From contig JAHEWK010000035.1 of the NCBI GenBank assembly GCA_020740775.1, forward strand, positions 310,001 to 374,000: a DNA stretch of 64,000 nt, in the 5' to 3' direction. Positions 40,645 to 63,410 of the stretch are shown piece by piece. The stretch is from Ilyonectria destructans (Eukaryota > Ascomycota > Sordariomycetes > Hypocreales > Nectriaceae). Position 1 is the first letter of the stretch. Each line of letters begins with the position of its first letter. Below the pieces are notes generated by a model. It was not told the DNA's origin and did no database searches. It saw only the letters and a list, made by a program, of their open reading frames with translations. Both the position numbers and the translations under genes were made by a program.

Positions 40645-42658
40645 TTATCCCGACCAGTCCCACAGCTCGGCTTCTCTGATCGTTGCGTCGCTCAACCGTT
40701 CCAGCCTCCCCTCCGCCGCAATCATGTTGTCGGGCACCTTGTTGCCTACGAAGTCCCTCTCTCGCGCCTTTGATAGGAGCATGATGCCGTCCAGCGACTT
40801 GCATCGCGATAGCTGCACGTACAGACTGTACGCGTCGCATTGCGTCGGGACCGCCTGACCGTCGATGCTCGTCGTCCTAGTTCCGCGCAGTTCGAGGGCA
40901 ACCCGATCTAACGTTTTGCTTTGGACTTTGTAGTCCGTACAGGCGAAAGCCGCGGCGCATGGCAGCCCCCGCCGACTGACGTTGTTCTTCTGCCACGGCC
41001 GCTTCCTCTGGCACTCTATTTTGATGCTGATAGGCGTCAGGAGGATCGTGCCGGGCGGCATACCGACGAAGTGGAGGTCTCTCGTCGACCCCGACGCGAG
41101 CACGATCCCCGCCGGAGGGCCAAAGTGGAGGATGGTATCGGCGTCGACGCGATAGCCCGGGTGCGCCTTGTCGAGGATGACGTCTAGCGCCGCGTAGCTT
41201 GCTCCGTTGACCAGCTTCAGCCCTTGGTGGGTGTTCTGGTTCACGACGACGGGCATGCCCGGAACAAACATGAGGACGGCAGGCACCGGGATGGCGCTGT
41301 CGTCGCCCTGGTTGAGGATCATGACAGCTTCCTCCTCACTCGGCTCGCCGTCCTTCCATCTGTGCTCGGAGATGAAGATGCGCAGCGGCGCTCTCCGCTC
41401 CTTCTGGAAACAGAGGGACCCCTCGATGTTCAGGTTCCAGCGGTTTCTGTTCAGCGGCGTCACCACCGTGATGCCCGACTCCCATGGGATCTGCCTGTCC
41501 TCCCGGTAGCAGGTGCTATTCAGCAACTCCAGGTCTGACTGGTCCTGCACGCCCTGGCGCACTCGCGTCAGAAGCCGCTGCAGTTGTGCATCGCCGGCGG
41601 CGCGGACTTGTTCGTTCAGCATGACCACCGTTGTGAACTTGTTCCACAGCGCGTGTGCCCTGTCGTGCTGGTACCTCTGCTCGGCAGTGAACGATCGTTC
41701 TTCGTCCCAGGCGATGGCCGTGCTCGGGAGCAGGATCGATCTCTCCTGCACGGGACGGAACTGGTGAAAGTCCCCACAGAAGAGGACGATGGGGATCCCA
41801 CCGAAGTCACGGGCAGATCCTCGGAGCTGGCAGAGCCGTTCGTTTACGGCGTACAGTGTCCTCGACCCTAACATGCTGACCTCGTCTATGATCAGCAACC
41901 ACTTCTCCTGCCACTCGGCGGTGGTCTGCCCGTCGATACGGAGGCCAGACGAGCTGGGCGCCGCAAAGCCGTCCGGCTCCGCTCGGCGGGACCGCGCCGT
42001 TGCATCTTTGGAGAACCCGCACGCGGAGTGGATGGTGATCCCGTCAATGCTCGCGGCGGCCGTTCCCGACGTCGCCGTTAGCAGCAGACGGTGCGACATC
42101 CCCCTGCTCGCGAACAGCTCGGCGACGACCTCAATGACTCGTGATTTCCCCGTGCCGCCCTCGCCGCCGACGAATTGGCAGAGCTGAGGTGTCCCTTGTT
42201 CATCGCGACGTACCCGGTCGAGTTGGCGACATATCAGTCGGAGGGCGATGCTCTGTCTCTCGTTGAGTGTGAACGCCTCGGCCAGTTGCCTCCCTGCCTC
42301 GGAAAACGACGTCGACGGGCCGAAGTGGATGCTCGTCGAAGGACCCGCGCCCTGGACTGAGGACCCCTACGGTCGCACATTACCACATGGGTGACAAAAC
42401 CATGTACGAAAATGACTGGAGCTATTTCGCACATAGGCTTTCGGCGTTTTTATATGGGGCTACAGTATTGATATGATAGCGCACTGTTTTCAATGTAGCA
42501 AAGCTGATGCCATACCAAGCGGTGCTGATGCCATTCCATCGGCGCCGAAGCTCCGATAATGCCGGTTCAGAGGGGGATATTGCAGCTGGAAGCCTTGGAA
42601 GGAGGTATGAATTCCGACCTCTACCACGATCTCGAACCCCTGGTCTGCGTCTCGTACA

Positions 42659-44257
42659 ATGCCGAGGCCCCGTAAAGACTTGGAGGGCGTCAAGGACTGG
42701 ATCCTCGAGCAGCGGCGAGAAGGACTATCCATTGACACTATATGTGCCCATCTCCGCGACGATGGGCACGTACTCGACGCCAGAACCCTGAAAAGGAGGT
42801 TAGCGGAATGGGGTGCACAGGAGTACTCCCCCCTTCACTCAAAGATTGATACCAACACCTTCGTCGAGCTGATCAAAGGCTACTTCTACCGATACGGATA
42901 TAGCGACACTTCCATCGTCCGTGATCTCAAGCGACGCGGCATCGAGATCTCCGAGCGGACTGTACAGGAGTATCGTCTGAAGCATGGCATGAAGCGGCGC
43001 TTCCGAGATCTGACTGAACGACAGGATGCTATTCAAAAAGCAAGAGAGTTCCTCTTCCAAGACGACCGTCAATCTTCAAGCATCAGAGGATTTGGCAGGG
43101 GGTATCTATACCACTACGTCCGCATCCGTGCCGGCGTCCTTGTCGGCCAGAATACCTTATATCGCGAGTACCAAACGAACCCAGAGTGGAAGAAGCGGGC
43201 CGAACAAAGACGCCTTGCTGATTGGAAGCACCGGAAGAACTTCCAGGTTCCTGGGCCTAACTTCATGTGGTCTCTCGATGGGTACGAGAAGCTCAAGAAC
43301 TTCGGCTTCTCTATCTACGCCTGTATCGACACGTACTCGAGAGCCATCATCTGGATATATGTCGGCAGGGGGAACATGACTGCGCTGAGTTCACTCAAAC
43401 AGTTTCTACGGACCGTGTCGTACTCAGGGGTCCGGCCCCTTTTCACCCGCTCGGATCATGGTATCGAGACTCCTCTTTGGGCCGGAGCCCAGGCGATTCT
43501 CGCCGACCTTGATCAGACAGAGTTTCGGTATACCACCGATGATAACGACCAACGAGTCCATAGGCAGGGAGCGAGACTGAGCTCCTGTCATATCTGGGGC
43601 CCAAGCACATCGAACCAACGGATCGAGTCTTGGTGGGAAAAGCTACTTAAAGGTGTCAGTCAGCGCTGGATCGCGTTCTCACACGAGCTGATTGATAGCG
43701 GCCTCTTCCAACCAAACCGTCTTGCTCACCAGATCGCGGTGTATGCTCTCTATGGACCCATGATCCGTCAAGAGGTTGCGGACTTCACGGAGATGTGGAA
43801 CGGCCATCGCATCCGGCCACAGAAGAATAGGGAGCATCTCGTCGCCGGGATCCCAATGGATCTGTATAATACAAGCGAAGTGGAGAACTGGGCAGTCCAT
43901 CTAGGGCCTGCGGCTCGAGATGGGCTTGCCCAGATGATGGCCGCTGTCGATTCTATCGATATAGACGATCTTCTTGACCCAACAACAACAGACTGGTGTG
44001 ATCAACAGCTCCGGGATCTTCAGTTCGGTGGTCAGCTAGATGGGGAGCTTGATCATAAGCGACCACACCTCGCAATCTACTTACGGCTTAGAGACAAGAT
44101 TCAGGTTCATCTCGACTGCGGGGCAAGTCCGGTGCTGAGCATCCCAGAGAGTCCAGTTGGAGGGCAAGAGAGATTCGTACGTAAAAAAGTACTCTATCGC
44201 ACTCAAAAGCTAGCTGACAATGCTTTAGCTTCAGCTCCTCGAGCAGAACTACCTTGA
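42659..44257 (+). CDS. DDE integrase-like transposase, element A
   Basis: ATG 42659, single exon, 532 residues. The N-terminal part (MPRPRKDLEGVKDWILEQRREGL and on) looks like two helix-turn-helix units. The integrase core has D207 in FMWSLDGYEKL, D266 in FTRSDHGIE and E323 in SNQRIESWW, the D,D,E set of retroviral/IS3-type integrases (rve fold). C-terminal to it is a conserved FTEMWNGHRIRPQKNR block. It is homologous along its length to the protein at 61082-62705. The enzyme presumably binds the TIRs and inserts the element with 6-bp staggered cuts. I do not know a named superfamily that fits exactly. Ginger-like or other integrase-derived elements are the nearest idea. The frame is intact. 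Confidence 0.9.
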   Translation: MPRPRKDLEGVKDWILEQRREGLSIDTICAHLRDDGHVLDARTLKRRLAEWGAQEYSPLHSKIDTNTFVELIKGYFYRYGYSDTSIVRDLKRRGIEISERTVQEYRLKHGMKRRFRDLTERQDAIQKAREFLFQDDRQSSSIRGFGRGYLYHYVRIRAGVLVGQNTLYREYQTNPEWKKRAEQRRLADWKHRKNFQVPGPNFMWSLDGYEKLKNFGFSIYACIDTYSRAIIWIYVGRGNMTALSSLKQFLRTVSYSGVRPLFTRSDHGIETPLWAGAQAILADLDQTEFRYTTDDNDQRVHRQGARLSSCHIWGPSTSNQRIESWWEKLLKGVSQRWIAFSHELIDSGLFQPNRLAHQIAVYALYGPMIRQEVADFTEMWNGHRIRPQKNREHLVAGIPMDLYNTSEVENWAVHLGPAARDGLAQMMAAVDSIDIDDLLDPTTTDWCDQQLRDLQFGGQLDGELDHKRPHLAIYLRLRDKIQVHLDCGASPVLSIPESPVGGQERFVRKKVLYRTQKLADNALASAPRAELP

Positions 44258-44360
44258 GCCTATTAACAATAGCCTCTCCGGAACTGGGCTACCTGGCGAT
44301 ATTATCAATAGTGTAGACGAGCTGATGGGGGACCTGGGTCACCTTGAGCTAGAGTAACTA

Positions 44361-45611
44361 CTATTTCCTCGTCTGTTTATGAGGATGCCGACTACTTGGC
44401 CTCCTCGTATTAACTCCTCGGGTTCCAGCAGCGGGACCATGGGCAGTGAAGGCAGGGCCAGCCGAGAGCTCCGTATCCTCTGCCTCTACCGAGAGTGCTG
44501 AGCTTATAGAGTCTCGAGCTCGTTTCTGACCCGCGCGGGTCTCGTCCACGTCGCTAGTAATAACCTCGATCTGGTCTTCTGCGCTAGCTCTCGAAGGGGG
44601 TAGAACTGGGCTCAGAGAGGGGCTCAAGGAGGGCGAGTTGAACTCGCTCCCGATTAACAAGGCTGGTTGTACCTTCACTTCGGCCTTGACTAGCTCTTTC
44701 TTGATTCCTTTCTCCTTTTTGAACGGCTTTACGGCTGACCTCGGTGCCTTGATATGACGAGGGGCCGGGAATTGTGGTCGAGGAGGCAATGGCTCATAGA
44801 AGACAAGGAAAAGGAGATATCTGCCCTCTGTTTTGCTGAAACGAAAAGGGCAGTCCTCGCCGAAAAGCTCTGCGACTGTCTGTCTCTCCCAGTCGAGGTC
44901 GCTCAGCTCCGTGATACCCTCTTTAATATGGGCGTTCTGAACGAGTCTCTTGTCGAATTGAAGAACAGAAGAGAGGGCAGGCTTGTCCTTGAACTGAGGG
45001 AAGAAGATGCTGTCGAACCAGAAGTGGACAGGTAAAGATGGTTCCTCGTCGACGAAGGGGCGCAAAGCGACCTTCAGCAGCTCTCTAGCCAAAGACCACT
45101 GGGGCTCCTCGTCTTCGTCTAGTATTTCCCATGGGCCAGGCCTCGCAAGGAAGACGGTGAGGCGCATCGAGATCTTCCGTCTGCTCTTGTTTTGGCTCTG
45201 TTTAGCCACAGCCTCACTGAGTTGCAACGAGCTCGCCCCCATGCCCCTCGCGATCCGACTCTGCGTAAGTTTGGCATCTCGATACACGGCGGAGGGCCGC
45301 GATGCTGCGAGGATACGGCCAGGGCCGTCTCCAGAGCCGGTGAAGATCGTCTGTGAGGGCGTGGAACGATCAGAGGCTGTTAGGTCGATAGACTGTATAG
45401 CGGAGGAGGTGGAAGCTGTCTCAACGTCTCGAAACGGGACTGGCGAGCTGTCGAGGATGGAGATACTCGTGGGCCAACGTCTCCCGCAATATGGACACAG
45501 ATTCGACCCTGGGTAGCTATCGCGGATGAAATCGTGGCTCCGTTGGTACGATTTAGGGGCCACGGTCTTCGGAACATCGGGACATGTCTGCGATAGGACG
45601 TGATCGGGCAT
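44361..45611 (-). CDS. Partner protein of element A: CHCC cluster and SIM-like motif
   Basis: Minus strand, ATG 45611 (TTG 45623 upstream less likely), 416 residues. The N-terminus has C10, H26, C39 and C42 in a pattern matching the partner of element B: C-P ... H-x2-I-R-x3-P-G-x3-C-P-x-C. Residues 74-78 are SIDLT, like a SUMO-interaction motif. A central domain (about 150-300) shares weak similarity with element B, best at VAELFGEDCPFRFSK ... LVFYEPLPPRPQ. The C-terminus is charged and disordered, with IKKE and VKAE (SUMO-acceptor consensus) and a basic GQKRARD cluster. No known family recognised. It ends about 100 bp from the end of the integrase gene, tail to tail. Confidence 0.75.
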   Translation of the reverse strand: MPDHVLSQTCPDVPKTVAPKSYQRSHDFIRDSYPGSNLCPYCGRRWPTSISILDSSPVPFRDVETASTSSAIQSIDLTASDRSTPSQTIFTGSGDGPGRILAASRPSAVYRDAKLTQSRIARGMGASSLQLSEAVAKQSQNKSRRKISMRLTVFLARPGPWEILDEDEEPQWSLARELLKVALRPFVDEEPSLPVHFWFDSIFFPQFKDKPALSSVLQFDKRLVQNAHIKEGITELSDLDWERQTVAELFGEDCPFRFSKTEGRYLLFLVFYEPLPPRPQFPAPRHIKAPRSAVKPFKKEKGIKKELVKAEVKVQPALLIGSEFNSPSLSPSLSPVLPPSRASAEDQIEVITSDVDETRAGQKRARDSISSALSVEAEDTELSAGPAFTAHGPAAGTRGVNTRRPSSRHPHKQTRK

Positions 45612-48600
45612 ATCTACGTACAAGACAAGGTCAGTCGCACAATCTCATGATGGATAGACCCGAGCTTACTTAGGGAATCGATGGGGATAGCCCATAACAG
45701 CTATGGGGTGGCGATGGGCTGGGTATTGATGCTGGTGTGGATGTGCGAGTGGAAGAATTGTGACGCGTCACCAGGAATTATCACGACATATTTCCTGGTG
45801 GACATGCCATCTAAATGAAGAGATACCTTCCGGATAGTGTGCGATACTGTAGTCTTGCAAGGGTCCACAAAATTACTAAGTATTTCCACATGGTTGAGGC
45901 TTCCCAAAAGGGTTATGTCACCCATGTGGTAATGTGCGACCGTAGACCCCGGTTCGGCACTCGTGAGACCCACGCCCTGCTCGCCGAACCCGATCGGCTC
46001 ACAGTGCACAGCTGAACCGTGACCTGTCGTGTCGTTGTCAGGCCGGCTTTGTATTCCTTGGATCATCCTTTCTCTGTCTTTCGAGACATTCCTTTGCTGC
46101 GACTTGATGGACCTGATCAACCCCTGTCCTGGTACGTCTGCCCCCTGAAACGGTCCTTCTGGGGCGTCCGGTACCTTCTTCGGCCCCTGCTCGTTAAATA
46201 TCTCACCACACGGCTCGTCCATTGAACGCAAGGCCACTTGGTGGAATTGACTCAGCTGCCGTATCATTCTCGAGATCTCCTTCGAGCCGGCCGTGACCTG
46301 GTCGGCTCCCATCGTCGTCCTCAAGACGTCGATGAGGCGTATTGCGTTGGCGACGCCGTTTGACCGGAACGCCCGACCCGGCCCCTCATCACCGTCGCCC
46401 ATTCCCGGGCCGATCGCCTCAGAGGCGGGATCGCCGTCCCCGGACTGGGCGGCCCACTGCTTCGCATCGCGTTTCGCGTCTTCAGCCGACCGGTGAAGGA
46501 GTTGGATGTTATCCGCGAGGAAGGATATCCTCCGAGGCAGCGCCTGTTTCTGTCTTTCCCAGATGGTGTTGATATCGCCTGATGTCTCGGACGAGAACAT
46601 TTCCCACGGCACGAATATTGCGAGATGCTGGACTGCCGCCCTACCATAGCAACGTCAGCTTTTGGGCAGATATGTCAAGCTATTCGCGTGCTTGCTACGT
46701 ACCTCTTATGGTAGACTTCGCCTTCGTCGCTAAAGTCCGTGCTCAGGTAACCATCGAAACAGACGACAGCGTGCTCGCCGGGCTTTCGCAGCGCTTGCAC
46801 CCACGTCTGCGAGAGGGGCCACGAGCTGTCGAATTGCACCTGCCCCCAGGCGCCTGCGCCCTTGCTCTTTCGTTTCAGCTTGACTACGGACATGTAGTCG
46901 TATAGCGACAGTCCTTGCAGTAGTCCGCCGCGGTGCGGGTATGCTTGCAGGAAAGAGATCCTTTGTCCGGCCTCTTCCAGGAGTACCGTCTCCTCAACCT
47001 GCTCGTCCGTCATCTCCATGCCGCTTTGGCGTCGCAGGTGCCACCACCGTCGAAAGATATGCCAGTAAAGGGAAGATGCGTTTAGGAATGTCCAGCCGTG
47101 GTTGCTCGCAAACTCGTTAGGATACCCCAGCAGATGAGCAACGACTTCGACCTGCGACAGCGGCCGGTCTGTGAAGATGCGGTTCGCGACCCTCATCAGG
47201 AACTGCCGCGTTCTGTTCTGGCCTCGCTCCGCCTCCTCCGTCTGGCTCTCGACGACCGACTCGTCCACAACGGGGAACAGTTCTGCTGCCGCGGCCACCC
47301 GTTTCCATACCGGATCCTCGACCTTGGTGGCGTAATTCGTCACATAAAACACAATAGCCATGGTCTTGCACTGCGTTGCGATGAACGAGATGTCGTGGTT
47401 ATGTCGCAGTCCGACCGCCATGGCCTTGTTCCATCGGTTCACCATGCTGTGATTCCGCCGGATCTGCAGTACTCCGTCGTCCGTAAACGCCGTCCTTTCC
47501 ACCAACCTCCACGGCGCCTTGAACCGGCACGGATCTCGATTCTTACCCTGTCCCCTAATGGAGTATTTCACGCACGTAGGGCTGTGGGTGTGGATCTGGG
47601 TGGCACCTGCGCAAAAGTTGGCTTCCTCGTCGAACGAGGAGGCGAACTGCTGGCTGGTCCGCAGCAGGGACGATATGTCTGACGACACGGACCTGTCCGC
47701 CTGCACCGCCGAAAAAGCCTCCTGGTCGAGATCCTGCATTATCGACTCTCATGTTAGGCAACGCGTTCCTGAGTCGCTCTTGCACGCGGGGAACAAACCT
47801 CCTCGAAGACGCTGTCCACGTACTGGATGACCCTGTCCCGGTACTCCGCTTGATCCTCCCCCGCGACATCTCCGAGTATGGAGCTGAGGTGCATGTTTCC
47901 CCGGAGCCAGAGCAATCCATGAACGTGGAGCGCCCCGCGCTCGTTAGTCTCCACGGCCCCAAAGTACCTGCTGATGCGCCCAAACACAGAATCCTCTCCA
48001 GTCTTCACGTAGTGTTCGAAGAACATGGACACCTCCCGGTGAAAGAAGACTGCCGAGCTGAGGGGATCCGAGACCGCCAGCCGTGCCCGCTTGTATGCCA
48101 GGTCGAGGCTCGTCAGGAAGGCCTCGGCCTCGTCCGGATCCCGCATCCGATATGCGGCGAGCCTCAGCTTGACCGGGTTAGTGATGTCGTTCGGGTTCAG
48201 CGTGAACCAGATCGCGGGGACGCCGTCCCGAATGATGAGGGACTTGATCTTCCGCCGCATGCTCAAACGACTCTCCCTCGACATCGGCTGGCGGAAGCCG
48301 TACAGCGACAAGCTCTTCATCAGCTGGTTGACGCCCTCGTCACCGGTCTTCCCGGTCGCCTCCAGGTCGACCTTGGCTGCCTCCAGCCTCTCCGCGCTGA
48401 GCGAGCGTACGATGCGCTCCACCTCCGGGAAGTTCTTCCTCGTCACGCTCAGCATGCTGACTCGACGATTTCTCGACCTCACTCCCATGTTGAAGACGAG
48501 GAACGCGAAGACATGATGCGTCGCGAACCGGCCGCCGTGGCGCTGGAGCACCACTGTGGCCCACGTCTCCAGGGTCATGTTCCGCGACGAAACGAGACCC

Positions 48601-50780
48601 CGTGCCCTGGCCTCCGCATCGACACCTCCATGCACCTCTTGGGCCGCGTCTTCGATGCTTTCCTCCGCCTGTCGTGGGCCCCCGCTACCGACTGGAAACA
48701 GCGTCGGGAAAGTCTTTGCGAAGAACGGTGCGTCGAAGGGATCGGCGAAGTCTTCGCCCCTTGACACGAGAATGTAAGGTTCACGCGTGTCTCCAGGCCG
48801 CACCTCAGCCGATCCCAACCCCGTCCCGGGCCGCATTTCATCACGGGCATCATCTTGGAGCAGAGCGTCACGGACATATCGCAACTTCTCCGCGTCCGCG
48901 ACGTCAGGTCGCCCATCGAGGTCAAACATGCCAGAAGAGCTGATCTCGTGAACCGGCGCGGCGGCAACGCCACCGTCCCCATCACCGTCCCCATCTTCGC
49001 CATCTGCATCACCAGGCTCCACCGCCACGTCGCCGCTGACCTCTAAATCGCGCCCCTGGCTCAGCGTTGCCAGGAGCTCTCGGATATCCACACTTCCCTC
49101 GTCTTCCAGGCCACGCTCTGTGGGTGGGACGACTTGTGCTGTTCGTGCCTTCTCCCACGCCGACGGCTCGTCCCGTTCCAAACGCTCATAGGCTTGGTAT
49201 GGCACACCATGCGACCGTGCGTCCCAGCTATCCAGTTCCGCCCTGTCAATGTCGATGTCGGCATACAAGGGATTGTGCCTCTTCAGCCACACCAGCGCCT
49301 TTTCCACAACTCGGCGCCGCACCGAGAGCAGTGCCGAGAGATCGCTCGGTGCCGGCTTCTCGGGCCCCTGCCACGACACGTGGATGTCATCCATAACCTT
49401 CAGGAGCGGATGCGGAAGCACCCTTGTCGCCAGCTCCTGCACGTTGTTAGGGAATACCGTGATGTGCCCCTTAACGTGCCTCGGATACCTCACGTTCTGC
49501 CGGTGCCCCTCTGGGATGCTATATTTGGTGATGAAGCCGTAACATGAGTTCAGCGCGATGAGCTTCTCCTCGACCGGCGTAAGGTCCTTCAGCTCGTCGG
49601 GAAACATGTGCTCGCATCCTAGCTTAGTGTGCAGCTGTGCAGCTGGAGACAAGCCGCCTCTCCTTAGCTGTCTCACGCAATCCGCACACCCACGAATCTT
49701 CTCCCCCACAGGGAAGCACCGGAGGCACTTAAAGGGTGATCCATCGCGCTTCTCGACAGGACTTGCCATCCACCGGTCCCACTCAACATCCTCTAGCTCT
49801 GCCCTGCTGTACTTACGGTAGCAGAACATGCAGGTGAGGATCGGTAACGTCCTCGTCTCATGAAACGCCTTGTAAAAGTCCTGGACCGTCTTCACCTTCC
49901 TCTCGTGGGGCACAGGCGCACACCATTCCTGTCCGTGCGAGAGTCGCTCCTTCTCCGCAAACTCTTCATCGAGCGCCACTAAGACGCTGGCGAGATCCCC
50001 CGCCTGTTCTTCCTCGTCCCTCTCTCGGCGGACCGCGGCCCTCATGCGCTTTGGCGCTGGCTGATCAGTGCGGCCAGAACCCGCTCTCTTCCTTCCCGGC
50101 TGCCGACTCGGCCCCGCAGGAGGAGCACCGTCCGCCGCATTCTCGGCCTCGCCGGCGACTTGGCCGAACGACTCCAATGTCCTCGTCCGTCTCCGTTGCC
50201 GAAAATTTTCGTTTCTCGACTCCTCGGAAATGTCAGCCACCGTCCGAAGCCCCAGACCTGCGATCAGAGACCTTCGCCCAGCTTCCAGCATTTCCGCCGA
50301 TGGATGGAAATCTGGTCCCGCGAGTATCGCCGTATTCGGCTGATTGTGCGTTTTCTCCTCGCTGGCCGGCCGTGGGGCTAACGGCACCCTGCTGCCTCCG
50401 TCCATCTGAACGGACCAGAACAAGGCAGGCCTTGCGGGCTGGTTGTTTTCCAGCCTTGCAAGCTCGTTGTTTCCCGGTCTGCCTTCTGGGCTCCTTGGCT
50501 GCCTCTCGACGCTGCCAGACTCCCTCGGGTGTTCGTACTCTCTTTGCTTCGCCTTTAAAATCCCGGCCGACGTCCGGATGCCGAGACCCGCCAGCCCCGG
50601 AGCGTCGACCGCTCCTAGCGGCACTGAGTTGCTCTCTGCCCTAGCCGCCTCCTGGAACTGCCGCCGCGCAGCCTCGAAGATGTCCGCCGATGTACGGATT
50701 CCCAGACCGGCAAGCGCTACGTTTTCGCGATTGCGCGCATCTCGTCGATGGAACTGGTCGGCTAGACTCTCCTTCTCCAT

Positions 50781-51253
50781 AACGAATCGCCTTCACTAGC
50801 TCTCCTATGTCAGTATTTCTGCCACGCTGCACAAAACACGACGCAGGGCCCCAGATAAATAATCCTGCCACCTTCTCCATAACCTCCTACCACCCGACCC
50901 CGGGCCTTGCTCCTGCCCAGTCTGAGAATCCGTTCTCTACATCTCACCCCGGGTCTCCCCTGATCCTTTGCTCCGGTAGAAGCTCAGAAACCATTCCACC
51001 CTGAGATGCAGAGACAGGCGCCGTCTTGCCTTGAAACCGTAGTGGCTTGACAATGTCAGCCGCGTTCTGTTCTTCGCCAATCGCTTTGCGAATATATCAA
51101 GGTTTCTTCCTCTAACACCACATCCGTCACAGCCCCTGAAGGCTCGACGAAGGTGGTGTATCAAGGATTTGGAATTACTCCTCTATATAAGCCGCCTATA
51201 CCACCCCCCGACTTCCTGCCCCTTTCCGCGACTTGCTTCAACCTCTATTCGTC
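50781..51253. promoter_or_regulatory. Divergent promoter region of RepHel and RPA-like genes
   Basis: The 473 bp between two divergent starts. A TATA-like CTATATAAGCC at 51182-51192 lies about 65 bp upstream of the RPA-like ATG. No other site is recognised. Confidence 0.45.
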
Positions 51254-52322: not shown

Positions 52323-52450
52323 ACAGTGGTCACTACCATCGTGTCTGGCGCCTCTGCATTTGAATTTATTTCTCCCTTTCACCCTACTGTCCTGTACCTA
52401 GCCATAACGCTCGATCTTGCAAGGCGACTCTTGCAAGGTGACTCCCCTGC

Positions 52451-53002
52451 TCAGTCGCTTTCTTCGTCCCGAGATACACACGCTCCCCTGTGTGTCTTCC
52501 AGTCTGCCTTCTGGTGGTCTTTGTCACAGTATGCCACAGCCTTGCACCGCCCGCACTTCCTGATCCCTTCCATCTTTCCGCACACCGCGCAAACTATGGC
52601 TCCCACCCGAGCCTCGGCCCCTGCCCCAACTTCAAGCATCTCCTCCTGGATGGCTTGTCGCGTCTGGCTTTCGCATTCGCCTTTCCCACACACGCTGCTG
52701 ACAAGAACCCCAACGTAGGGATCACCCTCTTTGTGAAGAAAGGACATTGGCGTCTGCAGAACGGTCGCAATAGGTGATCTGCAAATTCCGCAAAAAGGAT
52801 TGGATGCTGCGCGACAAGCCGGTTCGTGTTCTTTCAAAAAAGGCAGCACTGCACGTTGAAAACGATAGGCGTATGAATCATCTTGCCGGGCATGGGATAG
52901 GGGCCTGACGAGACTCTTTGAAATCTCGTGCGTAAAATTCAGACCTTCGGGGATATTGTTGCAGGAAAATTGGAACCGAACCGGGCACGTCGCCATGTTC
53001 AC
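52451..53002 (-). CDS. MYND-type zinc finger protein
   Basis: Minus strand, first ATG of the frame at 53002, 183 residues. The C-terminal MYND finger is complete: CAVCGKMEGIRKCGRCKAVAYCDKDHQKADWKTHRGAC. Upstream lies an unassigned region with another Cys pair (FCGICRSP). MYND fingers mediate protein contacts, often in transcriptional repressors. It ends 129 bp from the RPA-like gene, convergent, and could be host sequence carried by the Helitron or simply its neighbour. Confidence 0.75.
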   Translation of the reverse strand: MNMATCPVRFQFSCNNIPEGLNFTHEISKSLVRPLSHARQDDSYAYRFQRAVLPFLKEHEPACRAASNPFCGICRSPIATVLQTPMSFLHKEGDPYVGVLVSSVCGKGECESQTRQAIQEEMLEVGAGAEARVGAIVCAVCGKMEGIRKCGRCKAVAYCDKDHQKADWKTHRGACVSRDEESD

Positions 53003-53267
53003 GATGAGGGAGAGGACAATAGATGCTGTATCTTCATTGCAATCAAATTAATTGACCACAATGCTTCTAATCGTGAGCTTTTGGGAGAGTGAGTGCCGGG
53101 ACATGATTCCGCCCGGGTTGCTATTAAGGTTTCCATAAGGTTTTATAGAGAGCCGGGGATATGTTTCATGATCTCGACATGCCAATCACACACCACCCAC
53201 AGTCGAGCCTGTAACGACGCCACAATAGCCGAGCTGCCGATCTTGCTTCAACTAAATTCATGTCAGC

Positions 53268-53978
53268 TCAAAATAATAAAATTTGCTCAAGATACGTCGG
53301 CCGATTTTCGTCTCTAACTTCGTTCCTCAAGGCTCTTCTGGGCAAACCGCCTGCGGTTTGCGTCTCCTGTATTCTAGTACACTGAACCCCAGAATGCGCC
53401 CGATCCCCAATCCCTCTAGACCAACAAAAGATACAGCCGTCAAGGCCTCGCTCCTGTAGCCTCTGCCTGAACTCTCTGAACTCCTCCTGTTCCTTCATAC
53501 CATGGGTGATCGCTCGATCTCTAGCCGCCTGTACCACCAACTCTCGCACCCGCATGCCTGTCTCCTCCTCGTCTTCGGAGATGCCTAATTCCTCCAAGTC
53601 GACGACTTCGCTTCGGACTTAGCATATATCGCATAGCTCCTCCCCTTCTTCGCAGCCATCCCGATCTGTCCGTCCATCCATAACGGAATCCATAATTATA
53701 CGGCGGCATACTCGTCTACTAATGTAATCCTCAGTGGCAGTATTTTCTGCCACAAAATTCCGCGCCCTTTTTGGTATATCTTTTGTATCCACTCGGATGA
53801 CAATGGCCTCACTCTGCAGCCCGTCTCGACCAGCTTGTCCACTCTGCTGTGCATAATCGGCCATCTCAAATGGCATCTCAATATGCAGCACTACACAGAT
53901 ATCAGGGACGTCGATCCTGAGACCGAGAGCATTCGTCGAACGCTCTTGTGCCCTCGAGAATCGTGTGACCCTCATCAA
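53268..53978 (-). pseudogene. RecQ-like helicase C-terminal fragment
   Basis: Minus-strand frame LGLRIDVPDICVVLHIEMPFEMADYAQQSGQAGRDG (helicase motifs V-VI), a Cys/acidic tail EEGEELCDIC, a TAA (53619-53621), then in the same frame EEETGMRVRELVVQAARD ... CIFCWSRG. It resembles the C-terminal half of the family seen at 28851-30098. The ATPase half is missing. Confidence 0.7.
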
Positions 53979-54036
53979 CTACAAACCGGTCTAGCCGTGC
54001 TGTAACACTGGGTAGGAGTTATATTTTGATATCATT

Positions 54037-57000
54037 CTAAATCCCATACCAGATGATCTTCGTCAGCGCTGCTATTTGCCGTAGTATCTCTAAACCTTCA
54101 ACTCCTTGAATAGCTATCGATCGAGTGAGATATCTTGCAACCGTATTATCGTCAAAGGCTGCCTCTACTCCTCTTCCCACACAGTACTGTTCGACTGAGT
54201 CAAGCACCACCTCCTCAAGCTTTTCCCGTCCGCATTGAAAGAGACCAATGATCGTATCACGTAGTAGGAAGCGGCTATATTGGCAAATCCAACGCAACGG
54301 ATCCCGTTCAATCTACTCCCCGTTGTAGTCTCTCATCCATCTTGAACAGAATTGCCGAGGGAGATGGCAATGGTTGCAGACTTTGCGTGGTGCCTTCCAG
54401 TTCTGATAAAGAATACAGCCCAGTCTTTCTGTTAGTTGTTTTGCTCCCCCTTTTTTGCACTCTCGGAGGGTATGAAGAATGCTTGGCCCTTGCAACCTAC
54501 GACCAGCACAAAAACTGCACTTTCCTATCCACCAGTCCACTATCACTTTCCATCTCTTAACTTCCTTATTGCTTCCCCAGCCCCCAACAGAATCTGTTTC
54601 TAAAGAGGTGATGAGTGTCCCAGCTGGGCGATGGGGGAACCCTTCGAGTGGGGGAAGTCCCGCTTGGCGGTTTTGGCGATAGTAAAACGCCAGAACAAGC
54701 GTTTCGAATACGAACAGAAGGTTTGGAATCCAGCTGTCATCGAATGGTACCCGCTTCTCAAACCACGCCCGGGCGTGGTGCTCAACACTAAGGTCCGCGC
54801 TATCGTCATCGGAAGCCATCTTCGCGATTAATTTCCCGAGAAACTGGCTATCGTATGCACAAAGCGCGGCAATGACCCTCCTTATTACTGGTTTCTGCTC
54901 ACAGTGACCATTAGGATTCGACTTAGACCGGAGCTTTTTTACCCAGGTCGCTTTATCCTCTCCAGCATCTGCCGTATCAATCCGACAGGCGATGCGGATC
55001 TCTCCACAGGGACGAAATGTATGGGTGCACATGCTGCAGGTGCCCTGACCCCGTACAGACCGCGGAATAGTCAGACTCTCCAGCCATCGATGAATCGACC
55101 TTGCCCTATTGCCTTCATCAGACCTACATGTGTTCATATCGTGGCCAAGTTGCTGCTTTCCTGTGGCAATGAAGCATACTTCGCACCTGATAGATGTCCA
55201 CCATTCAGTGGTCTTGTGTATATTATCCAGGCGATAGGCCAGCGATAATCCCTCAACTCTGTTCTCTATGCACCCATTTAGGAAATGGATAGTTGCATGA
55301 CGCTCTGTAGCTGCTTGAAGGCTGCTGTGCTCAGTGAGGCAGCCAAATAAAGGGCCAGTACTCCAAGGGGTTGACTCGAGATCTTTATTGTTGGTGGATG
55401 GCATTATCCTCAGATACAAAGGGCAAGCAGCCGTATTCGTTTTCGCAGACGGTAGATTCTCCTCTCTGGTAAAGCGTCTCCTCTTTGGGGGCGATGGTGA
55501 AGATGATGACACACTCCGCCTATAGATCACCTGGCTTGAGAGTTCAGATAAGTAGGAACATAACGGAGATACATAAGTTGCGAAATATTCCTGAGTTGCA
55601 TGCTGGCTTTCAACGGGCTCGGCTGTGTATTGGAGCGGAATGACTAAAGTAGTGAGACTCTGGGTTTTCCTAGCGGCTGAACTGTTCCGTGGGGATTGTA
55701 TATGCTGAGCTGGTGAAAGGTGCAGGGTATCATTAGGGTTTGATAAGGCCGTCTTGCTCGGCATTTGAAGAAACTCATGCCATCGAGTAGATGCCCACTC
55801 GTAAAGGTGTAACAGCTGTGGCTGTAACTCTGTGGGAAATGCCCCGTCTAGGCTATATGTCGTTCCTCGCTGAAGTGGGCGATGTCCGCTCTGCTATGCA
55901 AAGACAACATTGCGATCTGCATTCTCGCTTTTGTCATCAAACCGGTTGAATGGTTTATGCACTTTCCGGACATGCTTCTCTGTGATGCCGATGTATAGAT
56001 GGCGAAATAGCTGTAAATTGACAGGCTTATCCCACACTTTCGATATGGCGTCCTTTAAAGCTGTAGTAAAACAGCCAGAAGGCTAAGGTTTGCTTCCGGA
56101 AGTCGTTTGGGCGCCAAAGAGGAGGGGTGAGGTTGCTTCTTTATGTCTTGAATCTGGGCGATTCTCTTGATGCAATAGGTTAATAAGTCGTTAAATGTAA
56201 ACAAGACGCTTATAGAGTACCCTTCCGAATGGGGCTGGTAAGAAACGGGCGACAATAAATTCCCGGTTTGTTGACGCTTTTGCTTTGTGATGACGCACCA
56301 CAAAGACCATCAATTTATTATAGACATAGATACCTCTCAGAGTGAATTCTCTATTTACGCACTACAGACTCAAGAGGTCAGGCCACCTTAGCGTTTATCC
56401 ACCTAAGCTAGACATCCCCAATAACAAGAAGTTGCACATCGCTTCTTCTTTCCGGAGATACCAGAAGACTGCTTTCCAGTTCCAATTGCCGCCTCGGGAG
56501 AGACTGTTGCGCCGAGTAGTACATACTCTTTCGCATAACGCAAGGTGTGCATCCTCAAGGTGATTATCTGAATAGAGCATAAATAAGAAGCTCTTTTCAG
56601 TATTCGTTATGTCGTTCTTAATTTTAGCTAGATTAATAACGGGATCCCAGTTGTATATCAGCTCTGTATAGAGGGTTTCAGCTTGCTGGGTAATATAGTT
56701 GCCCAGGAGTCGGAATTCCGTTATAGAAACCCGAAAGGAATCCCCGTAGGAGACTGTCTGCCTATTATCGCTCCAGCGCAAGAGGAAGTGATGCGAATAT
56801 ACCGCGGAGGTCACATAAAGTGAGGTTGTCATGTAGATGTAGAAAGATGGATGACGAGCTAAGACTACAGTTGAGGACGGGAGAATAAGGTCTCCTTCCT
56901 CACGTGATGTTACATATAATGCCAGTCTTAAGCACCAGGCCCAAGACTGGTTTTTCACGTATCAGGAAGGCTGGTATATCCAAACGCACTATAACCCGAC

Positions 57001-58741
57001 CGTAATTACAAAGGCTAATCATCTCCTCAAAGGCTGACTGAGATCCAACGACTATATACCGCTTCCGTATTAGCTCGAGCCTCTCTAGCTGTTCGGTCTG
57101 TAGACGGCGGAAGATACTGAGGAAAGAATATACTTATAGCGGGATAGCTATCTCTAGGAAGAGTAGGCATTGAATATAAATCAGACCTAATAGGTGAGGC
57201 GTATAAGATCTAGCCGGAAGAAAAGCGCAGGAAAGTCGCGAGAACCCTAGGATGCCACTGAAGTAAATAAGCAGAGCAGAGCTAGGCCGGGAATCAGTAA
57301 GAGTCTCAGTGCATAAGGACAGGCTCAACCCAAGGACGAATTCTATAAGCTGCTCAGCAGATCTCGCAGGAAGTGAACTCTAGACCTTTCCAAACACATG
57401 CAGTTCATCATTTCCCTCCAAATCATCCTCGGCATTCTCAGCCGCCCCATCACTCATTTCCCTGGCTTCTTCCTCTCTCCAATCCTCATCAATTTCCACA
57501 TCACTATCCTCCTCATCTTCAATTTCGCCCTTATCTTTCTCCTTTTGATTATCTAGCGCCCACTCTTCGACCGCATTTAAGGCGCCTGCATTACCACCAT
57601 TCTCAGCAATTAGGATACTGGAGTATTTAGAGTCGGAACTAAGTAATAAGTTGTAGTTCCAGATCAACTCCAGAAAGCGCACTTATTTCTTCTTCAACCG
57701 AATTCCCATAATATTCTCCTGAATATCTGCATCTATTCGGTATAACCGAAAGACCAGCATTAGGCAGCACTTAAAGAGCAGCCGGTATTTTTTCGTGCTA
57801 GAGGGTTGGCGTACAAGAGCAAACAGTTTTGGATAACTCAATACGGCTTGAGTGCTCCTCAGCCAACAAAGAATGCTACGACTCGTCTTTCGCGCCGTAT
57901 CTTCACATCAATCCATCAAATCGTCCACTAAGTTGGCGATAGCGGCGAGTTTAAGCTTATCTCCAGCAGGGCTTATAAGATCCTTATTAAGACCGTCTAT
58001 GCCGCGCCAGCCGAGGATGTGAGGTCGCTTGCCGGGATGAGACAAAGGTAAATCTGTCAGAGCTAAAAGGACGTCACAACTTATGCCCTTGTATGTTTCG
58101 TCCCATCCCGTCCTTTCTATCCAAGGCCGCTGCTCCGCGAATGTTAAGGATGTTGTTGCGTTTTCTTAAATGATGCCCTGGTTGGTCGTATCATCATTTT
58201 AGCTTCGTTCACACTCCTCGACGGACTGGAGATGGGCTTGGATGTCGTCATTGACACGAAGCAAGCTTCCTTTATGTTTGATAATCCAATACTTCCGGGT
58301 TCGATTCGAGCCGGCAGTCCAAGTCTGCAGCCATATATCGTCGTAAAGCTCATCCAGTTCGCGCCGGGTGCTATGCTTGTCATAGAGATGTGTGCTAGAA
58401 ATGTGACGGCGTAGGAGTGAGAAGTTGGTGGTGCGGGTGTTGTATGTTCTGCAGACGAAACCTTTATATACTCGCAAATGAGGGTGTTCCGGGGAACCGT
58501 CGTCTAGGGGTTGCGCCTCGGTGGGATCATGAAAATAAGACTCTCCAAGGTCTTTCAGAACTCGAGTTAACCCTTTTCGCTCATCTTCATGGACCTGGTG
58601 CTTGTCTTTCAGATGTGTCGTAGCACGCGAGCGTGCAACGGAGAGGGCGAATCGACACTCTTGTCGACAACAGATCAAAAGCCTTGCTTCTGGATCAATA
58701 CATAACTCGAGTCGAGCCAGGAAGGCAGTAGAATCAGACAT
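54037..58741 (-). pseudogene. Large OrsD-like (PF12013-type) gene, heavily decayed
   Basis: Minus strand. 58741-58199 carries the OrsD-type N-terminus with C2H2-like pairs (CCRQECRFALSV ... HLKDKH; FVCRTYNTRTTNFSLLRRHISSTH). Then 58150-57690 gives GWDETYKGIS ... GWRGIDGLNKDLISP ... VDDLMD, TGA (57908-57910), CEDTARK. Next come an acidic tract (57682-57380), SLCTETLTDSRPSSALLIYFSGILGFS (57330-57130), FLLRWSDNRQTVSYGDSFRV (from 56788), a piece at 56303-56055, and VNLQLFRHLYIGITEKHV ... VFA, TAG (55894-55896), QSGHRPLQRGTTYSL. A long open part follows (55764-54313) with Cys-rich blocks, then TAG (54313-54315) and an in-frame tail to 54037. A 176-bp MITE splits codons at 56789-56964. Function unknown; the family is widely expanded in repeat-rich fungal DNA. 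Confidence 0.7.
56789..56964. mobile_element. 176-bp MITE, copy 2, with 5-bp target duplication
   Basis: Same ends and length as 2765-2940. Duplication GGAAG at 56784-56788 and 56965-56969. Its exact removal rejoins the OrsD-like frame (PAF-LLRW). Confidence 0.92.
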
Positions 58742-59038
58742 GGTTTGTCCTCACTATTGGCGTATCCTTGATCTGGTGACAAGAGGAGAAGGGGCTACGG
58801 AGAAGTGGCGGAAATGGCCTCCTCATTTAGGTTCAGGCAAGTGAAGAGTCATCCATTGCATCCAACGCCACCTCATTTTAAATCTTGGAGAACTATACCA
58901 GGTGTCGCAGCCCCTGAATACGTGCACGGACGGAAATTAGTATTTACTGCGTATCTATTTTACAGGACCTGAGGCGTGCACGGGCCAGAATGTCGGTATT
59001 ACTGCGTATTACCAGTGGTACTAGTACAGTAGGGTTAT

Positions 59039-59272
59039 TTTTGTTGGTGATCCCAACAAATTGACCCTCGTCGAGAAGCGGCTTCAGGGGGAAGACTACC
59101 TTGTGCTCTCGCACTGCTGGGGCCGTCCAACAGAGGAACAAAAGAAGCGCTTTTGCACCACCCGAGAAAACTACCAAGATCGATTGCAGGACTTCAGCTA
59201 CGATGAGCTGCCCAGGACATTTCAAGATGCGGTTCGGGTGACTTAACAACTTGGGAAGCAATACCTCTGGAT
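59039..59272 (+). pseudogene. HET-domain (heterokaryon incompatibility) fragment
   Basis: DYLVLSHCWGRPTEEQ, then LPRTFQDAVRVT, TAA (59244-59246), then QLGKQYLWI in the same frame: the LSHCWG, LP.TF.DA and LG..YLWID signatures of PF06985. The frame ends exactly where the palindromic array begins (CAGCGCTC at 59273). HET proteins control self/non-self cell death in filamentous fungi; this is a stub. Confidence 0.8.
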
Positions 59273-59530
59273 CAGCGCTCGCAATAGTCCAGACCATTAG
59301 GCGGACTATTAGTCCAGACCATTAGGCGGACTATTAGTCCAGACCATTAGGCGGACTATTAGTCCAGACCATTAGGCGGACTATTAGTCTAGTCTGTATG
59401 TCTCGGACCAGACCGATAGTCCAGTCTGACTCGTCCAGACTGAGCAGTGGTCCCAGTCTGAGAATTCCAGACTGACCAGTGGTCCTAGTCTGAGAATTCC
59501 AGACTAATAGTCAGACTATTGGTCTGACTG
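59273..59530. repeat. GGACTATTAGTCC palindromic array, locus 3, with 25-bp tandem repeat
   Basis: Four exact copies of a 25-bp unit (AGTCCAGACCATTAGGCGGA plus CTATT) at 59286-59385, then degenerate palindromes with CCAGTCTG. The left end CAGCGCTC is shared with locus 1. Confidence 0.85.
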
Positions 59531-59899
59531 TAGGGTAGTTTCGTGGCTGAGGGTGCAATCACCAGCCACTATCAACCTAATTATTCTCTCTAATTTGGTA
59601 ACGCCACCTCACCCTAACTACGGAAGTCCATAGGGGGCACAGTTCCAAAACCCCCGGCCCTCTTTTTTTTCATCACTAGACTAACCCCAATGTGTATTTA
59701 TCCTTCTGTTTAGCCGCATACGAGCCCGTATCGTAATTTCAATGAGAAAATTGCTTTACCGGTGTACAAGGGACCATCCATTTCCCATTGCCGGGCCAAT
59801 TTAGTATATGGTGAAAGGGGTATAAGGTTGCGTACGAGTTCGTACGAACTCGTACGCACACTTTCGCTGCTCTCTATCAACTTTCCACCTTCTTTCAGT
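59531..59899 (+). promoter_or_regulatory. Leader of element B partner gene with TACGAG motifs
   Basis: Contains TACGAGCCCGTA at 59713 and, at 59833-59855, a run of TACGAGTTCGTACGAACTCG-type palindromes. Presumably the left end of element B lies here, but no TIR could be paired. Confidence 0.5.
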
Positions 59900-61036
59900 A
59901 TGGAGCCCGCTTCACCTCCTCAAACAGAGTACTGTCCATCAGCGCAACAACGTACTCGTCATGTGGATATCCGTACGAAATTTCCGGGGGCTGTTTATTG
60001 CCCGCATTGCGCTCAACGACTCCCTACGGCTCTACACAATGCAGCCCCTATTTCGATCGACCTGACCGTTGATTCACCTTTAACCCAACGGACCTCTACG
60101 ACAAAGAACATTGCCTCACGGGGCATAATCACTACTTCCTCTACAACTGTGCCAATGCCTGACACCTATCAGGCTTCGACTATGATGGCCGTACAGAACC
60201 GTCAGAGCAGTATCGCAGCCACACGGATCCGAAAGGACCCAGTCGTTGTCGAACTATCAGCAATCTTCTGGATTGGTGACGGCTATATCGATGATAGCAT
60301 CCCAGGCATCACGATTCCAGTGTACAAGGGAATTCGGCACGCTGGAAAGCGTACTGGATCTGTTGAAGTCGTACTAGGGCGTAAGTTTTCATCCCATAGC
60401 TCAATGATCAGATTCATCGTCGAGCAATGCGATGAACGCCTCAAGGAGAAAGAGTGGCAAGTCGTTCATTCCGTATCAACAGTTGGCGCTACTTCTGGAC
60501 CCGTATACTTCCCTAGTGGAGCGTACAATACCGTTACGCTAGGAGATCTATTCAGCCAGGGGAATATCACCGTTACAAAGCAACGTGATACAGCCAATCT
60601 CACTTTTTGGCTCTTCAACGAGGGACCCCGACCTGATGACGACTGTCAGAGGCCGTTGAGAGCCGCACGTGGCCGCAAAAGGGCTATTGATCACGGGCCT
60701 TCTGATATGGACTCGGATATGTCAACGCCAAGTCCTATCAAGCCCAAGGTTCCACGTACGGCAAAGTCAGGGCGCGTATCAACCAGTAAGGACGAATTCA
60801 AAGCCCTAGTGCTATCTCTGGTACCAATGAAGCTCGAAGCTCGAAGCCCCATCAAGACTGAAGTCAAGGATGAGGTTATCGCGGGGTGTATTACAGTCAC
60901 AGATACAGCTTCGAACGATGCCGCACTGAGTGATCCTTTTACGAGCGATATCGAACAGTCAGAAACACAGGGGGGTTCACCTGAGAAGAAGCTTCCTTTT
61001 CGAGCTGGGAGGGGGAAGAATAAGAATATAGATTAA
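59900..61036 (+). CDS. Partner protein of element B: CHCC cluster and SIM-like motif
   Basis: ATG 59900, 378 residues, single exon. The N-terminus has C12, H21, C34 and C37 with the same spacing from His to CPxC as in element A (12 residues) and shared I-R and P-G positions. ISIDLTVDSP at 51-60 is a strong match to a SUMO-interaction motif (hydrophobic-D-L-T followed by acidic/Ser). The central region contains LGDLFSQGNITVTKQ ... WLFNEGPRPDDD, matching the element A block. The C-terminal part has nuclear-localisation-like RGRKRAI and an IKTE site in SPIKTEVKDE. It ends 45 bp from the convergent transposase. No known family. The frame could be extended upstream to 59762, but ATG 59900 fits the partner of element A. 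Confidence 0.75.
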   Translation: MEPASPPQTEYCPSAQQRTRHVDIRTKFPGAVYCPHCAQRLPTALHNAAPISIDLTVDSPLTQRTSTTKNIASRGIITTSSTTVPMPDTYQASTMMAVQNRQSSIAATRIRKDPVVVELSAIFWIGDGYIDDSIPGITIPVYKGIRHAGKRTGSVEVVLGRKFSSHSSMIRFIVEQCDERLKEKEWQVVHSVSTVGATSGPVYFPSGAYNTVTLGDLFSQGNITVTKQRDTANLTFWLFNEGPRPDDDCQRPLRAARGRKRAIDHGPSDMDSDMSTPSPIKPKVPRTAKSGRVSTSKDEFKALVLSLVPMKLEARSPIKTEVKDEVIAGCITVTDTASNDAALSDPFTSDIEQSETQGGSPEKKLPFRAGRGKNKNID

Positions 61037-61081
61037 TTTGAGTGCGAAATGCTTCAATCATGTACGTATTTGGTTATATGG

Positions 61082-62705
61082 TTAGTCCTCCTGCTCGTCA
61101 ACATCATCAATCTCCTCTCCAATCTCATTTTTGAGCCTATCAAGCGTAGTGGCATCAATATCATTCGCTGCCAAATGATCTCGTACGCGGTCCAGTCCAC
61201 CAGTAGGTGTTGATAGTAGCTCTAGAGCAGGTGATTCTTGATTGATAATATACTGCTGCAAATGCTGCCGTAAGAAGAGATATGTAGAAAGATGTGGCCG
61301 TTCTACTGGATCTTGCGGGTAGTCTTGACGGCTTTGGAGTATGCGATCGCAAATAGCTATCGTATGCTCAGGTAAGTAAGCGTCAAGGTCAATATGGTCT
61401 TCTGCGAAGATATTCTGAAGTGTATCTAGTCGTCCCTGAGGGATGACCTCTGCCCAGCTTCTGACTTGTCGGGCCTCGGGCTGAAAGTAAAGGTTCCATG
61501 GTTGCCCGGGAACAACATGTGGCCTATTGCGCTGTTTACGAATGTAATGCACATTCCACATGTGTACGAAGTCGGCGAATTCCTCTCTCAAAATTGGCAT
61601 AAAGATATAAAGCATCGCAATACGGTCGGGTACGGAATCATCCGAGAAATATGAAAGTCCCGTGATTTCAGAGAAATACTCCTAAGAATACATCAATACG
61701 CCATCATAAATAAAGATATCAGTCTATACTTACCCGCCAGAACTTAGCCCTGCCTCGACTTAGCCGAAGCCACCAGCTTTCAATCTTCTGATTATTCGTG
61801 CTCTTGCCGTAGGCCCAACAGTCTTGGAAGCGCACGTCTTGCCGAATACTATCCCGTACACGCACGCGTTCTTTCGAAAGGTAGAAATGTGCTCCAGCCA
61901 TTAGAATTGTCTCTCGGCCGCGGTCTGAACGGATGATATTGGGCATTGTTTGGCGTTCTGAAAGTACGTGAAGGTATTGCGCAACAACACTCCGTGACGT
62001 ATTGGCTGATATGCCAATATAAAACCACGTAATAAACCGTGAGTATACGTCAATTGAAGCGTAAATCTCAAAGCCCCAAGCCTTCAATTTATCATAGGCA
62101 TCAAGAGACCACATGAAGTCAGGGCCAGGTGCTGTCCATCCACCTCGGCGATATCGCATCGTATTCCAACGTTCGGTAATACTTCCAGGATAAAACTCAC
62201 GAAAGCCTTCGTACAGCGCCCGGCGACTGAGTACGAGTCCAGCTCGACGGACCTTTGCGTAGAGATACGTACGGCCAAAGTCTTTAAGCTTAGTGCTCTG
62301 TTCGGACTCGCTTTCAAAGAAACGGCGCAATTCGCGTAGGCTTTCTGATATCTGCTCGGGGTCTTGACGGCGCCAAAGCCCAAGGTCCCGGCGTATGCGT
62401 TCAAGTCCAGTCTTCGTGATAATAAAGCCGTCAGAATGAAGCTTCAGAAGCATAAAGTGATCATTCAAGACCTTATTAAAGAATAAATCTTTAATATGCT
62501 GACGAAGGTGTTCTGAGTCTTTGGTGTATTGTTTGACCGAGATATTCCAACTTTTGAGGCTGCGATACACGGTCGTACGTCCCACTATGACGTGGAAATG
62601 CTCATTAAGGCGCGTGACGATTTGATCGTATGTGAGATGGTCATCATTCTTCCATTGTTGAATTTGTATGCGAAATGAAGATAAGTCAATCGAAGGGCGG
62701 CCCAT
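61082..62705 (-). CDS. DDE integrase-like transposase, element B, two exons
   Basis: Minus strand: exon 1 62705-61734 and exon 2 61681-61082, with a 52-nt intron (GTAAGT...TTCTTAG, phase 0), giving 523 residues. ATG 62705 (MGRPSIDL) is chosen because it aligns with MPRPRKDL of element A; an upstream ATG at 62789 exists. Catalytic residues are D202 in FMWSLDAYDKL, D261 in IIRSDRGRE and E309 in NNQKIESWW. The N-terminal HTH-like region and the C-terminal FVHMWNVHYIRKQRNRPH block match element A. No stop or frameshift, so it may be active. Element A has no intron at this position. Confidence 0.88.
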
Positions 62706-62923
62706 TGCGTTGACTTGCGGGCTCGTATGAGGCCGTGACGAGAAGTACGGGCTCGTACTAAAAATCGAAAATTCGAGCTTTGGATTCAATCGGGGGCTGG
62801 AAATCTTTTTCGCATGGCCGCGTACGTGGCCGTACGAGAGCGTAATCTTAATTTTTGAGCTAGAGCCTGATTAGGCAATTCAGGGGCAAAGCTACTGGTG
62901 GTCGTTAGTAATCATACAATATA

Positions 62924-63105
62924 TGTTGGATTGCTTATGTGACCATTTGATGACCTTGAACCTGTGTGTGTATTCTGTATCTGTTGTTGTTGTAAGGGGC
63001 TGTCTGCTTTGGACTACACCCCGGGCCTATAAGTGGGGCCCGAAGGCCTCCCTATTCCACACGTGACATCCTGGAGCCCTGGTGTTCCATGCCTCCAATT
63101 CAACA
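62924..63105 (-). repeat. Solo LTR, copy 2 (182 bp)
   Basis: Reverse orientation to copy 1. ATATA duplicated at 62919-62923 and 63106-63110; TG...CA ends. It lacks the 91-bp MITE and so shows the ancestral LTR. Confidence 0.93.
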
Positions 63106-63410
63106 ATATACAACCAGACTCTACCCAGCAATACTCCCCAGATTTTAAGGCAAATACATTACATCTTCCTCACATTAAAAACAATTAAAGACTAAAGTAA
63201 ATTTCATTTCAGGCCCTAGCTAGCAATTAGGTATTATAATGCTCTGTATGCCTCTTGCAGTCGTACGCAAAAGTTTCGTTTATATTTTGGCTTAGATTAC
63301 AAAAAGAAATTTTGCCTTAGAATCTCAGAACAGGGGTGGTAGGAAATGACTAAGTAGACTAGGAAAAGGGTCGGTACGAGCTCGTATTCTCATGTAAAGG
63401 GTGATATACC
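63106..63410. other. Stretch without gene, 3' of the DUF3716 gene
   Basis: One TACGAGCTCGTA palindrome at 63374-63385. Nothing else supported. Confidence 0.4.

Follow-up and report, generated by a model that had tools for sequence, protein, structure and literature searches.

The window analysed here, a stretch of 64,000 nucleotides (C29:310001-374000; the assembly comprises 71.7 Mb on 74 contigs; positions below are those of the window unless a contig is named), contains two strongly diverged transposons, A and B, each of which carries an integrase-type DDE transposase gene and, tail to tail with it, a gene for a second protein, the partner. We consider it probable that these are IS3EU transposons whose constrained convergent partner acts as an accessory protein, with a third gene in B and with short forms that are non-autonomous. 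We place element A in the IS3EU superfamily, and B less fully, its repeat being 5 bp; the class is not new, and the elements are new members of it.

Structure of the two elements

Element A is a complete IS3EU-type transposon of 3577 bp (42368-45944, plus strand), as judged from its terminal inverted repeats (TIRs), from other copies with the same length and ends, and from the open frame across its joined flanks. Comparison of the flanks identified a 6-bp target-site duplication (TSD), GACCCC, on the left (42362-42367) and on the right (45945-45950). The TIRs found by repeat search are 34 bp long with one mismatch (left, TACGG..., 42368-42401, plus strand; right, ...CCGTA, 45911-45944, minus strand); the inverted arms that the search returned are 35 nt long and 97% complementary, and 34 nt of them lie inside the element. 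The long frames within the 3577 bp are those of the integrase and the partner only. The former encodes an integrase-type DDE transposase of 532 aa with D207/D266/E323 and a PF24764 domain (42659-44257, plus strand; open reading frame and domain match), and the latter (44361-45623, minus strand; listed from a TTG, with an ATG at 45611) bears an H-x12-C-x2-C zinc signature, an SIDLT motif and a basic tail. When A and one GACCCC were removed in silico, an 808-aa frame on the minus strand was open across the junction, and the remaining five frames over the joined flanks were 23 to 83 aa. The target of A is a Helitron, because matches to PIF1 helicase (44.4 bits) and Helitron_like_N (143.2 bits) lie on its two sides.

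Element B occupies 59619-64000 on the plus strand and continues beyond the window to 64759, giving 5141 bp in total; CTAAC is found at both edges as a 5-bp direct repeat, and the left end of B was set by comparison with three further copies. The 35-bp left TIR (59619-59653, plus strand) has an exact inverted copy at 64725-64759, outside the window, and the termini TACGG..CCGTA are a motif common to A and B. The partner gene (59900-61036, plus strand, from an ATG at 59900) encodes the H-x12-C-x2-C signature, SIDLTVDS, a beta-grasp-like core drawn at low confidence and a basic tail. The integrase-type DDE transposase, with D202/D261/E309, is read from a spliced frame on the minus strand (61082-62705): exons 62705-61734 and 61681-61082 are separated by a 52-bp intron (61733-61682, GTAAGT..TTAG) and join to exactly 523 aa. 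A third gene, with approximate limits 63430-64000 on the minus strand, runs past the window and matches DUF3716 at about 63630-63785 (43.5 bits, cut-off 22). This DUF3716 zinc-type gene was also seen as the third gene of B at locus L078; the name DUF3716 was not found in the largely open-access literature searched.

The terminal pattern TACGGAAGTCCATA occurs at 48 sites in the genome, versus 1 for the reversed control, and 22 of the 48 pair into 11 B elements of 4945-5141 bp. Nine of these measure 4945-4968 bp and two, the window copy and that at C29:156034, measure 5141 bp. The window copy contains a 182-bp solo-LTR-like insert (62924-63105, TGTTGG..CAACA) with a 5-bp repeat, ATATA; the start of the insert is present in both 5141-bp copies, whose extra length agrees with the insert plus its repeat, and the copies on C13 and C18 lack it. 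To the left of element B, at 59285-59384, lies a 25-bp tandem repeat, TAGTCCAGACCATTAGGCGGACTAT.

A preliminary description of this DNA, made from the sequence, had reported an integrase and a partner tail to tail at both loci, with 532 and 523 residues, the catalytic positions given above and an intron in one copy, and the frames at A and B, including the 52-bp intron of integrase B, bear out each of these statements. The span that it gave, 42368-62855, takes in A whole but B only in part, 759 bp of the element lying past the window. Its view that the loci are strongly diverged was also correct: integrase A and exon 1 of integrase B share 33% identity across 342 residues (158 bits), and recent duplication of one locus is thereby excluded.

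Placement in the IS3EU superfamily

Element A is assigned to IS3EU because its transposase domain, termini, TIR and TSD match published ones. PF24764 was matched with 99.2 bits by integrase A and 46.6 bits by exon 1 of integrase B; the NCBIfam IS3 match of integrase A (32.7 bits) is below its cut-off of 160. In the excerpts of the published accounts used for these comparisons, IS3EU, grouped with GingerRoot, has TA..TA ends and a TSD usually of 6 bp and has been a Repbase entry since 2013 (PMC10045372), and rust IS3EU elements have 6-bp TSDs, TIRs of >30 bp and the ends TAYGG..CCRTA (PMC12730594). An integrase-type DDE transposase and TA..TA ends are common to IS3EU and to A and B; beside the rust elements, the ends here are TACGG..CCGTA, the TIRs are 34 bp (A) and 35 bp (B), and the TSD is 6 bp in A (11 of 21 copies), whereas B has a 5-bp repeat. 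The suggestion that this kind of element is undescribed is not supported, since PF24764, the termini and the 6-bp TSD are those of IS3EU in these excerpts.

The idea that the elements are instead Ginger-type or retroelement integrases seems to us scarcely credible. It could draw on rve matches, which are weak (16.8 and 24.3 bits, below the cut-off of 32.6), and on the 5-bp repeat of B, which taken alone would fit Ginger2; against this, A has a 6-bp TSD and TA..TA ends, compared with TSDs of 4-5 bp for Ginger1/2 in the excerpt (PMC10045372), the 3577-bp element has the integrase and the partner as its only long frames, and hmmscan up to E 0.1 gave no match for A or for exon 1 of B to the integrase zinc (HHCC) domain, which IS3EU lacks ahead of its catalytic core. 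PMC4920403, which had seemed relevant, was dropped, as it describes a retroelement in the excerpt.

Second genes are known from some related systems, which can be set beside the present elements by their excerpted descriptions. In rust TET+ IS3EU elements a transposase and an alpha-kinase are encoded in opposite directions (PMC12730594), whereas the present partner lacks a kinase match; an alpha-kinase partner of the rust kind was rejected because the partners scanned gave no such match and the whole genome has one. Styx of Zymoseptoria is IS3EU-related, has a 36-bp TIR, was sought with a 6-bp TSD and contains several genes, but it is 7.9 kb long with four frames, namely the transposase, two frames with GATA and CCHC motifs, and DUF3577; a figure legend derives it from an "IS3EU element encoding two proteins", and one of its frames, or the second protein of its ancestor, may correspond to the partner (PMC10853768). 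IS481EU has a related DDE transposase, which the published tree does not resolve from that of IS3EU, but it encodes a single protein and has TSDs of about 4, 15 or 25 bp (PMC10045372). Harbinger/Nuwa elements likewise combine a transposase with a second, DNA-binding protein, but the partner there is Myb/SANT, the TSD is 3 bp (PMC12730594) and the transposase comes from another superfamily.

The integrases have 34 protein relatives, compared as proteins only and including those of Verticillium, Xylariales, Usnea and Oryzias; a sequence search at E 0.01 found no relative among solved structures. One relative of integrase A, P0014, is a partial record named Verticillium dahliae with 95% identity over 69% of the query. 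Horizontal transfer would be possible on this resemblance, if the record is right.

Pairing of the two genes across the genome

Merging of the genome matches gave 123 loci for the integrase and 103 for the partner, one input search contributing part of its matches. Among the 79 rows of one partner search, 43 were dropped because they matched the query's first ~50-70 residues, a region with hits to dispersed sequence; another 13, which matched the tail, were also removed. Further removals comprised 14 of the 49 partner B rows (12 of the short type, tallied apart, and 2 fragments), 5 of the 19 rows of another search and, in two more searches, rows repeating places already listed.

An integrase lies within 2.5 kb of 94 of the 103 partner loci found, and 93 of these 94 pairs are convergent, the other being tandem. 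By type, the integrase is this close at 42/45 loci for A, 25/27 for B, 12/12 for L070 and 15/19 for L069. An integrase is absent within the tested distance at 22 of 116 partner-type loci (9/103 at 2.5 kb and, for the short type described below, 13/13 at 6 kb). The proposal that the partner occurs only beside an integrase, in convergent order, was checked in this one genome; it stands for most of the loci but not for these 22. Conversely, a partner match is absent at 29 of the 123 integrase loci. The one of these that was opened (L079, C12:611811, 42% to B) proved to have a convergent partner, overlooked by the searches, and three further loci of the L079 lineage, with the same 42% match, probably have one too. 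Each of the five integrase lineages that were read (A, B, L070, L079 and L069) has a partner. That the convergent pair has been kept through deep divergence is supported, and the two-gene DNA transposon of the preliminary description holds in this respect, although its kind bears the name IS3EU.

Both genes of the A lineage have dN/dS values that are safely well below 1. Against the relatives L036, L037 and L038, to which integrase A is 73, 73 and 76% identical, the integrase values are 0.10, 0.10 and 0.07; those of the partner core are 0.21 (L036) and 0.20 (L037), and that of the partner start is 0.23 (L036, one stop skipped), all of them rough because dS is 1.5-2.4 and near saturation.

Copy number, ends and decay

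Counts of genome matches are lower bounds: at least 86 for integrase A and at least 69 for partner A. Full-length matches with 100% identity number 15 for each gene, and both genes are found together at 14 places. Among the loci in hand, 21 A copies have both ends readable; TACGG..CCGTA is present in 21/21, which are not independent cases because the copies were chosen by that TIR. The TSD matches at 6/6 positions in 11 of the 21 and is not perfect in 10. The genome has 80 listed exact A-type ends, so that further pairs exist beyond the 21 whose flanks were read.

Three of the ten copies that lack a perfect TSD, all of them full-length (C30:325830-329406, C15:53776-57352 and C18:137783-141359), have swapped TSDs in a closed three-way cycle: every one of the six hexamers that border them has its match at a different copy of the trio. 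Such a closed exchange is as expected from recombination between dispersed A copies, or from misassembly.

RIP-type decay is evident in L068 on C4 (C>T plus G>A, 569 versus 7 reverse transitions) and in L034 on C8 (205 versus 22), and the signal is weak or absent in L029, L065 and L036. This decay and the 14 places at which both A genes are 100% identical co-occur in one genome.

The partner protein and its putative role

Judged by their sequences, partners A and B are homologous: their zinc knuckles align in BLASTP (35 bits; E 2e-6 for a single comparison), and a separate profile match covers the core (probability 92, E 6.5e-7). Both carry the H-x12-C-x2-C signature, which could not be found in L069. 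Partners often have an (I/V)DLT motif of SUMO-interacting-like type, its strict form being absent from L079 and L036, and the basic tail is lysine-rich. No named family in Pfam or NCBIfam and no enzyme domain was matched by the partners scanned, and a partner family under any name was not found in the literature searched (largely open-access, with Repbase outside the search). Two homologue searches gave 5 proteins each, that for partner A scoring the best 7997 candidates; the named ones are from Fusarium or Ilyonectria, and the rest are unnamed. The closest named relatives among these matches are from Fusarium for A and from Ilyonectria robusta (97%) for B. As I. robusta is one of the Nectriaceae, the host fungus probably belongs there as well. 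The predicted models have mean pLDDT values of 45.6 and, for partner A, 36.6. The low-confidence model of partner B draws its core, residues 109-242, as a ubiquitin-like (beta-grasp) fold; Foldseek with this model gave no significant match, the model of A being left out as too poor, and the best E of the partner profile against solved structures, by sequence search, was 0.49. The partner looks like a zinc-binding helper encoded by a little-known second gene, going by these motifs.

The likeliest role is that of an accessory transposition or regulatory protein. The partner may also be needed for transposition, as the preliminary description suggested. We propose that the transposase would cut at the TACGG..CCGTA ends and insert with a 6-bp duplication, as the anatomy of A suggests, and that each element carries a fast-evolving yet constrained convergent partner, which might bind element DNA or the transposase and couple them to host nuclear factors, thereby promoting or tuning transposition. 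Element B has gained a third gene, DUF3716, and short derivatives keeping just the start of the partner gene would be non-autonomous and moved in trans.

The partner could instead be dispensable for movement and protect the element, for example from silencing by the host, a role that others have argued for in the case of the TET/JBP genes of other fungal transposons; we regard this as unlikely, if worth keeping in mind. Other fungal IS3EU elements do carry extra genes, TET/JBP and alpha-kinase, according to the excerpt (PMC12730594), and the RIP-type mutation in L068 and L034 indicates that silencing pressure is real. On the other hand, the lack of an enzyme domain in the partners scanned, the single alpha-kinase match in the whole genome (C74:1381071) and the presence of the pair in every lineage read, where cargo would tend to vary, all speak against protection.

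A bolder reading would make the partner the founding member of a group of transposon-borne SUMO/ubiquitin adaptors that connect the transpososome of IS3EU with the SUMO machinery of the host, the short form, released by the abundant partner-only elements, regulating transposition in trans. Its architecture of zinc knuckle, SUMO-interacting motif and predicted ubiquitin-like domain would recall that of Rad60-Esc2-Nip45 proteins. We hold this joint reading to be very improbable; if the core is truly ubiquitin-like, transposition would be tied to the SUMO/ubiquitin pathway in a new way.

The convergent partner of several lineages and the 14 places with both genes at 100% make the requirements of IS3EU movement directly testable in yeast. 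Studies on the function of IS3EU second genes were not found in the largely open-access literature searched. Transposons of IS3EU or related to it matter in plant pathogens: Styx is reported to have been active recently in one (PMC10853768), and in Colletotrichum lupini such elements reportedly outnumber all other DNA transposons (PMC11645255).

Short partner-only elements

Thirteen loci are of a short type. L071, the one locus of the type that was read, encodes a 196-aa partner start in which the zinc signature and PIDLTADS are kept; its right end was located by the end pattern. The 196-aa frame is open in 11 full-length copies that are 98-100% identical. None of the 13 loci has an integrase match within 6 kb. 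An IS3EU-type end lies beside 12 of the 13: B-type ends flank both sides in nine, 1613-2045 bp apart (exactly 1616 in five), three have one B-type end, and C24:5505 has none within 5 kb. With these ends, the short elements look like non-autonomous IS3EU members, which would be moved in trans.

By analogy with KP, which the P elements of Drosophila encode, the 196-aa protein might be a repressor that acts in trans. The intact, nearly identical frames, the B-type ends around nine loci that have no integrase nearby and the retention of both the IDLT motif and the zinc signature in L071, the one locus read, would all suit such a repressor; a recent burst alone would, however, keep the frames open by descent, and we judge repression improbable. 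A-type ends also occur paired 235 bp apart, at C16:744061-744295, and this pair is likely a miniature non-autonomous element.
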